Assembly: GCF_024713945.1 (NCBI RefSeq)
Contig: NC_134680.1
Location: forward strand, 5,825,501 to 5,889,500
Reading direction: 5' to 3'
Length of the DNA: 64,000 nt
Source of the DNA: Dermatophagoides farinae
Taxonomy: Eukaryota; Arthropoda; Arachnida; Sarcoptiformes; Pyroglyphidae
Shown: one piece after another, positions 28,748-29,605 of the stretch
Position numbering within the stretch: the stretch's first letter is position 1
How the letters are laid out: every line of letters begins with the position of its first letter
Position numbers and translations under genes: made by a program
Notes under the pieces: model-generated
What the model was told of the DNA's origin: nothing
Databases searched by the model: none
The model's input: the letters and a program-made list of their open reading frames with translations, nothing else

Positions 28748-28751
28748 TTAA
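28748..28751. repeat. TTAA target-site duplication, left
   Basis: TTAA lies immediately outside the CCCTAGAAAG terminus and is matched by TTAA at 29602-29605. This is the diagnostic insertion site of piggyBac transposases. Confidence 0.85.
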
Positions 28752-29601
28752 CCCTAGAAAGGTAACCTACGTAAAATTTATGCTTTTTGCACTTCAAAAT
28801 GTTCCAAAAAAACACTCACGATGTTAAGACAGCTGGAACCCCTTTCTATTCCTCAAGAATATATTTCTACACCTTTAGAAATAGAAAAGATCCAGTTTTC
28901 GCCTTTTATCTGTTATCTATAAGCTCAGGCGTAAAAGCTTGTACGTAAAATTTACGTATAGTTGCCTGAATCAGCATAGAAAAATCTTAGAAAATTTTGC
29001 TGAGAGCGATAGTTTCGGAAATTTTTCCCAAAAAACGTCATTTATGAATAAAAATAATTTTAATCTTTTTCTTTTTTTAATCTTTTCACTTGTCAAAAAC
29101 GTTTTTTCTCGCAATATTTTTTGAAATAAACGTCTTTTCTGTTCATTTGTTTATGTTTTTCACTTTATTCAAAATTAAAATGCTTGCAAAAAGCGTTTAA
29201 CAACGACCGGATGTAAACGTTGTGGCACCGCCCCCGTGGCGAATATCAGATAAAAATTTGTCAATCATGTTTCGAAACACAATCATCGATTGATTAATCA
29301 TATTTACAGGATCATTTTTCATTTTTTCTTGACGCTGTGATAATTTCAAAATTGACAATAAAAAAAAATTCAAAATTTATACCATATCTTTGATTTGATA
29401 TTTTTGAACTTTCCACTTTTGAAAAATGATTTTTTTTTCTTTAATATAAAATAGAGGTGTGATTCAATGAATAAACGTTAAAATTTAACATAAATAATCA
29501 GATGAATAATTTTTATAGCGGAAATAAGTTAGGCATATCAACTACGTAAAATTTACGTAGGTTACCTTTCCCGCAATATCGATAAGGTTACCTTTCTAGG
29601 G
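28752..29601. mobile_element. Non-autonomous piggyBac-family transposon (MITE-like), 850 bp
   Basis: The element is flanked by TTAA on both sides (28748-28751 and 29602-29605), the piggyBac target site. Its ends are perfect 16 bp inverted repeats: CCCTAGAAAGGTAACC at 28752-28767 and the reverse complement at 29586-29601. The outer CCCTAGAAAG matches the piggyBac terminal sequence as known from the lepidopteran element. A 19 bp inverted repeat (GAAAGGTAACCTACGTAAA) starts 5 bp in on the left (28757-28775) and recurs inverted at 29552-29570 on the right, where it is separated from the end by a 15 bp spacer. This reproduces the left/right asymmetry known for piggyBac ends. The interior holds no ORF above 61 codons and nothing resembling a transposase, so the copy depends on an enzyme supplied elsewhere. 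Confidence 0.88.
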
Positions 29602-29605
29602 TTAA
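29602..29605. repeat. TTAA target-site duplication, right
   Basis: TTAA lies immediately outside the right terminus (CTTTCTAGGG). It pairs with the copy at 28748-28751. Confidence 0.85.

Follow-up and report, generated by a model that had tools for sequence, protein, structure and literature searches.

The 858-bp segment at positions 28748-29605 of a 64,000-nucleotide stretch of Dermatophagoides farinae DNA (the window, contig NC_134680.1) raises the question of what kind of transposable element it is and which transposase has moved it. The original prediction described a piggyBac-family MITE with intact ends that was mobilised recently and lies between LRP2 and PKG, and it allowed for a matching autonomous piggyBac that may still be active. 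The domains on either side fit the two gene labels, which are the names given by that prediction only: the neighbouring frames on the left (21.7-23.7 kb) encode LDL-receptor A and B repeats, and those on the right (33.5-34.6 kb) a cyclic-nucleotide-binding domain and a protein-kinase domain.

To characterise the element we mapped its ends and interior (Table 1). As predicted, TTAA is present on both sides. The terminal inverted repeat is indeed perfect, but at 21 nt including TTAA it extends 17 bp past the tetramer and not 16 bp. It starts with CC[C/T]T, a start given as a piggyBac hallmark in PMC2872659. The 19-bp perfect internal inverted repeat GAAAGGTAACCTACGTAAA was likewise recovered (28757-28775 and 29552-29570) and reaches 24 nt if one mismatch is allowed. 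Its left arm overlaps the terminal repeat and its right arm is displaced 26 bp further inward, and the element ends are therefore asymmetric. The additional, internal palindrome core has zero variable sites among the 12 full-length copies described below and is possibly a further transposase-binding site; part of it is absent from the internally deleted copy at C1:3858205. No transposase gene lies inside the element, again as predicted, since the longest stop-to-stop frame is 79 codons and no PF13843 match was found at any listed copy.

Table 1. Positions (window numbering) of the element and its parts.
Feature	Position	Strand	Remark
Whole element with both TTAA	28748..29605	.	850 bp + 8
Left TTAA	28748..28751	+	
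Right TTAA	29602..29605	+	
Left terminal inverted repeat, 17 bp	28752..28768	+	
Right terminal inverted repeat, 17 bp	29585..29601	-	
Left-end module, IFP2 LE35-like	28752..28786	+	27/35 identical without gaps; distal palindrome half degenerate
Right-end module, IFP2 RE63-like order	29540..29601	-	Terminal repeat, ~15-bp spacer, GAAAGGTAACC second copy, 19-bp near-palindrome
Second copy of GAAAGGTAACC	29560-29570		Within right-end module
19-bp near-palindrome of right end	29542..29560	-	Position would correspond to the cysteine-rich-domain-bound site of IFP2
Third, internal copy of 17-bp palindrome core TACGTAAAATTTACGTA	28942..28958	+	Perfect copy
Non-coding interior	28787..29539	.	No PF13843 match; contains all 54 variable columns of 12 full-length copies

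The ends were then compared with those of IFP2, the piggyBac of Trichoplusia ni, using the LE35 letters quoted in PMC7351741 and PMC3078864 and the RE63 letters quoted in PMC3078864. Past the common first 10 bp, the ungapped left-end match to LE35 still holds 17 of 25 identical positions, a value that single-base shuffles attained 3 times in 100,000 without gaps and 0 times in 2,000 with gaps. Equally, the gapped score of the right end against RE63 past the first 10 bp was reached by 4 of 2,000 shuffles. The layout of dissimilar left and right ends with an internal palindrome is IFP2-type, even with one half of the left palindrome degenerate, and together with TTAA and the terminal repeats it bears out the assignment to piggyBac with intact ends.

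Searching the whole assembly (62,435,336 bp in 22 contigs, from which all copy counts are lower bounds) returned at least 49 matches to the element, 12 of which, the window copy included, are full-length (858 positions) with 98-100% identity. A thirteenth copy also runs from position 1 to 858, at 88% identity and with deletions inside, and in a fourteenth an internal deletion splits the match in two. The many near-identical copies that the prediction had considered are thus present, and the element occupies at least 14 places in the genome searched, not a single one. Consistent with this, the pattern TTAACCCTAGAAAGGTAACC at up to 2 mismatches had 46 genome matches versus 1 for the reversed-pattern control. 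We extracted 15 copies, namely the 12 full-length copies, the 88% copy, the split copy and one without its right end; TTAA and terminal repeats are found at both ends in 14 of these, and their 30-bp flanks are all different. The remaining listed matches are fragments or degraded copies, some of which carry altered tetramers, such as C9:552302-553493 where the right tetramer is no longer TTAA.

The window copy is letter-identical to C2:8316551-8317408 on another chromosome, and C4:1229406 and C4:1946241 differ by a single gap. Among the 12 full-length copies the mean pairwise difference is 1.43% (range 0-2.2), with 54 variable columns of which 34 are private and 20 shared; the shared columns therefore indicate subgroups and not a pure star. 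Twelve near-identical copies, differing flanks and an identical pair on two chromosomes support recent transposition, and the claim of recent mobilisation holds in the sense that the spread of the family is fairly recent.

Three 59-bp elements (C2:5241653 and C4:3722649/3728871) were rejected as separate insertions and are duplicates of one locus, because they share their flanks. In the region C7:943000-948000, pieces of the 858-bp element lie nested and rearranged in a cluster (C7:943926-946797). Exact searches of viral contigs and of prokaryote contigs with the left end gave 0 matches each.

To find a transposase matching these ends, the genome was searched with domain profiles and with the T. 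ni protein; the search scores the best candidates only and absences are reported on that scope. PF13843 gave 16 matches (15 above the curated cut-off, one below), with the full domain in two nearly identical matches at C2:4364159 and C5:3037117. The other 14 are partial, and some are pieces of one locus. The T. ni transposase gave 10 matches and the zinc-ribbon PF13842 a single one below the cut-off, all without matching ends. A second terminal-repeat pattern search found 62 end matches versus 11 for the control, the weakest of which (2 mismatches) were mostly left unfetched. The 62 listed ends had no PF13843 match within 100 kb, and no end-bearing fragment was seen to carry a transposase when the PF13843 matches were set against these ends. 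In the opposite direction, 15 of the 16 transposase loci, scanned with ~1.5 kb on each side, contained no terminal-repeat match at ≤4 mismatches of 16; the remaining locus, a middle piece at C1:1076979, overlaps two scanned neighbouring loci. Copies sharing these ends around a piggyBac transposase were thus not found on this scope.

Several candidates were set aside. End-like matches with 4/14 mismatches (16/16 transposase loci scanned) and shorter end motifs with 3-4 mismatches (15/16 scanned) were judged to be chance, a judgement made without a shuffled control. The isolated left end at C7:595739 was rejected as the edge of a longer element, as past its first 36-37 bp it continues into a repeat common to many places, mostly on C7. 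The ends at C3:6492933 and C3:6495219 do not delimit a 2.3-kb element, since both are left-type and no PF13843 match lies between them.

Two relics are related to the IFP2 enzyme. The relic at C9:2920823 contains stops and shares 38 of 75 aa with the T. ni transposase, and for both this relic and C3:4311421 the T. ni structure 6x67 is the sole solved-structure match at E below 0.1. Judged by sequence, these are decayed scraps of an IFP2-like transposase, which was found in no other form. A related transposase thus exists in the genome as decayed relics, and none was found intact with matching ends.

Very probably, the 858-bp elements form an IFP2-type family that is non-autonomous and was amplified recently, with a helper that has been lost from the assembly, segregates outside it or was missed by it. 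An IFP2-like transposase supplied in trans would bind the asymmetric left and right ends, cut the element out by TTAA-hairpin chemistry and place it into a new TTAA by cut-and-paste; trans binding, hairpin excision and TTAA insertion are presented as established piggyBac biology in PMC7351741. Because no matching transposase was found, the trans-mobilisation step rests on end similarity, which points to an IFP2-like enzyme as the probable mover, and the family appears orphaned in the assembly. We infer that the helper was lost, segregates or was missed rather than being replaced by an unrelated piggyBat-like enzyme.

One form of this explanation is that a matching autonomous piggyBac persists in the species, missing from the assembly through a gap or the choice of sequenced culture, and is still active. 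The two letter-identical copies on different chromosomes and the 92.1% BUSCO completeness given for the published D. farinae assembly (PMC11074847) are in its favour, but no fragment carrying an end together with transposase was seen among the matches listed, and near-identity alone cannot tell recent from current activity. We therefore regard present activity as possible, with the balance somewhat against it. Rather doubtful is a broader proposal, in which the family is a natural arachnid variant of the IFP2 end code (a left half-site, a right full near-palindrome and an additional site in the interior) that continues to move with a helper not present in this genome. That helper would be an autonomous element that segregates among dust-mite populations or, despite non-matching ends, a piggyBat-like element acting by cross-mobilisation.

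The genome does contain an intact piggyBac of the latter kind. The element at C5:3035871-3038772 (2902 bp) has a 556-aa transposase frame with full PF13843, and TTAA with matching terminal repeats TTAACCCATTCACGACC on both sides. The closest solved structure to its transposase is 9c0f (piggyBat), and the residues that we take to be its three catalytic aspartates align to T. ni 6x67. A second copy at C2:4362913 shows 99.9% identity across 2466 aligned columns and is flanked on the left by different sequence; its right part is damaged, the TTAACCCATTCACGACC end is present on the left side only and a 2-base loss alters the frame at the C terminus. The 19-base left tip has 16 exact genome occurrences, and these features suggest a recently mobile autonomous family.

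An apparently complete enzyme with aligned catalytic residues, matching ends of its own and recent movement would all be suitable for cross-mobilising the 858-bp element. Both belong to the same superfamily and target TTAA, but the piggyBat-like element differs in its ends, its intact transposase and its nearest structure. TTAACCC is the only end sequence in common, and the two piggyBat-like loci gave no match at ≤4 mismatches to the four motifs taken from the ends of the 858-bp element, which makes cross-mobilisation improbable. The matching autonomous piggyBac that the prediction had allowed for was not found, the intact one having other ends and a piggyBat-like transposase.

The distribution of differences among copies bears on how they arose. 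The 54 variable columns all leave the first 76 and the last 73 of the 858 positions untouched (~3e-5 if uniform, with boundaries chosen post hoc), and the 30 private substitutions alone also avoid the ends (~5e-4, with their own boundaries). Absence of shared variants from the ends is explained by selection for movable ends in source copies. Private substitutions sparing the ends are not predicted by plain post-insertion mutation and count against the recent-amplification explanation; this pattern may point to an origin of many of them in source copies outside the sample, ahead of insertion, or to gene conversion.

To look for unoccupied paralogous sites, the joined flank pairs of 14 copies were searched against the genome. 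For the copy at C9:1974614 such a site was found on C3: it carries TTAA once and aligns continuously across the joint (88.6% over 535 columns), which supports TTAA duplication on insertion for this sister copy. The predicted duplication of the flanking TTAA is thus backed at a sister copy, while the window insertion site has no paralogue in the genome by this joined-flank search. At C9:2014117, in a paralogue of C9:2020327, the element is likewise missing, but rearrangement prevents a clean TTAA readout. That the copies are old and have been kept alike by gene conversion or segmental duplication, without recent transposition, would agree with private substitutions avoiding the ends, but is very improbable with 15 different sets of 30-bp flanks, 14 of 15 copies stopping exactly at TTAA and one having an unoccupied paralogous site.

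Two copies have lost their right ends in a similar manner. At C1:7079627-7080366 the sequence after the truncated element repeats 41-44 bp of the left flank together with its TTAA, which is what would be expected if post-excision repair had switched template to an empty site. In the piggyBat-like copy at C2:4362913 a 17 bp left-flank repeat including TTAA follows the lost right end. Such left-flank repeats may mark gap repair that aborted once the element had been excised.

As to the label MITE, the element is non-autonomous and has very short relatives, but it exceeds a classic MITE in size and falls short of one in copy number, at 850 bp and with at least 12 full-length copies; classic MITEs are described in PMC2872659 as usually under 500 bp with very high copy number. 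The short relatives are two micro-elements with little beyond the left and right ends: little of the left terminal repeat survives in C2:4085394-4085527 (134 bp), and C4:6690079-6690227 (149 bp) has TCAA and TTGA where TTAA is expected. On sequence grounds both fit the idea that the ends alone may suffice for movement.

The family offers a natural, diverged example of the asymmetric piggyBac ends on which engineered vectors depend, and suggests that this asymmetry is kept even in gene-less copies. Its copies also record that a DNA transposon moved recently in a lineage for which PMC5805368 reports an absence of piRNAs, and the control of transposons there is of interest. For the published assembly, PMC11074847 gives no more than 55,004 bp of DNA transposons; the 12 full-length copies together amount to ~10.3 kb, which that figure may include. 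Among the matches listed in one literature collection on piggyBac in dust mites, no description of such an element was found.

The element is a real but ordinary kind of non-autonomous piggyBac, with IFP2-type ends already known from T. ni. It shares with IFP2 the TTAA target, the CCCTAGAAAG tip, a left end with an adjoining palindrome and, in the IFP2 letters quoted, the right-end order of terminal repeat, spacer, repeated AAAG motif and 19-bp near-palindrome. The palindrome site of the IFP2 right end is bound by the cysteine-rich domain, as described in PMC7351741. The repeat offset is 26 bp in the mite element and 27 bp in IFP2 (hand-counted from the quoted letters). Unlike IFP2, the mite element has no transposase gene, its palindrome core reads TACGTAAAATTTACGTA and not TGCGTAAAATTGACGCA, its left palindrome is half-degenerate, and it carries the additional internal palindrome copy. 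CMITE of Acropora corals, as described in PMC2872659, is likewise non-autonomous, TTAA-flanked and piggyBac-derived. However, CMITE is ~100 bp long and occurs in tandem arrays with a conserved interior and variable ends, whereas in the 858-bp element the ends are the invariant part.
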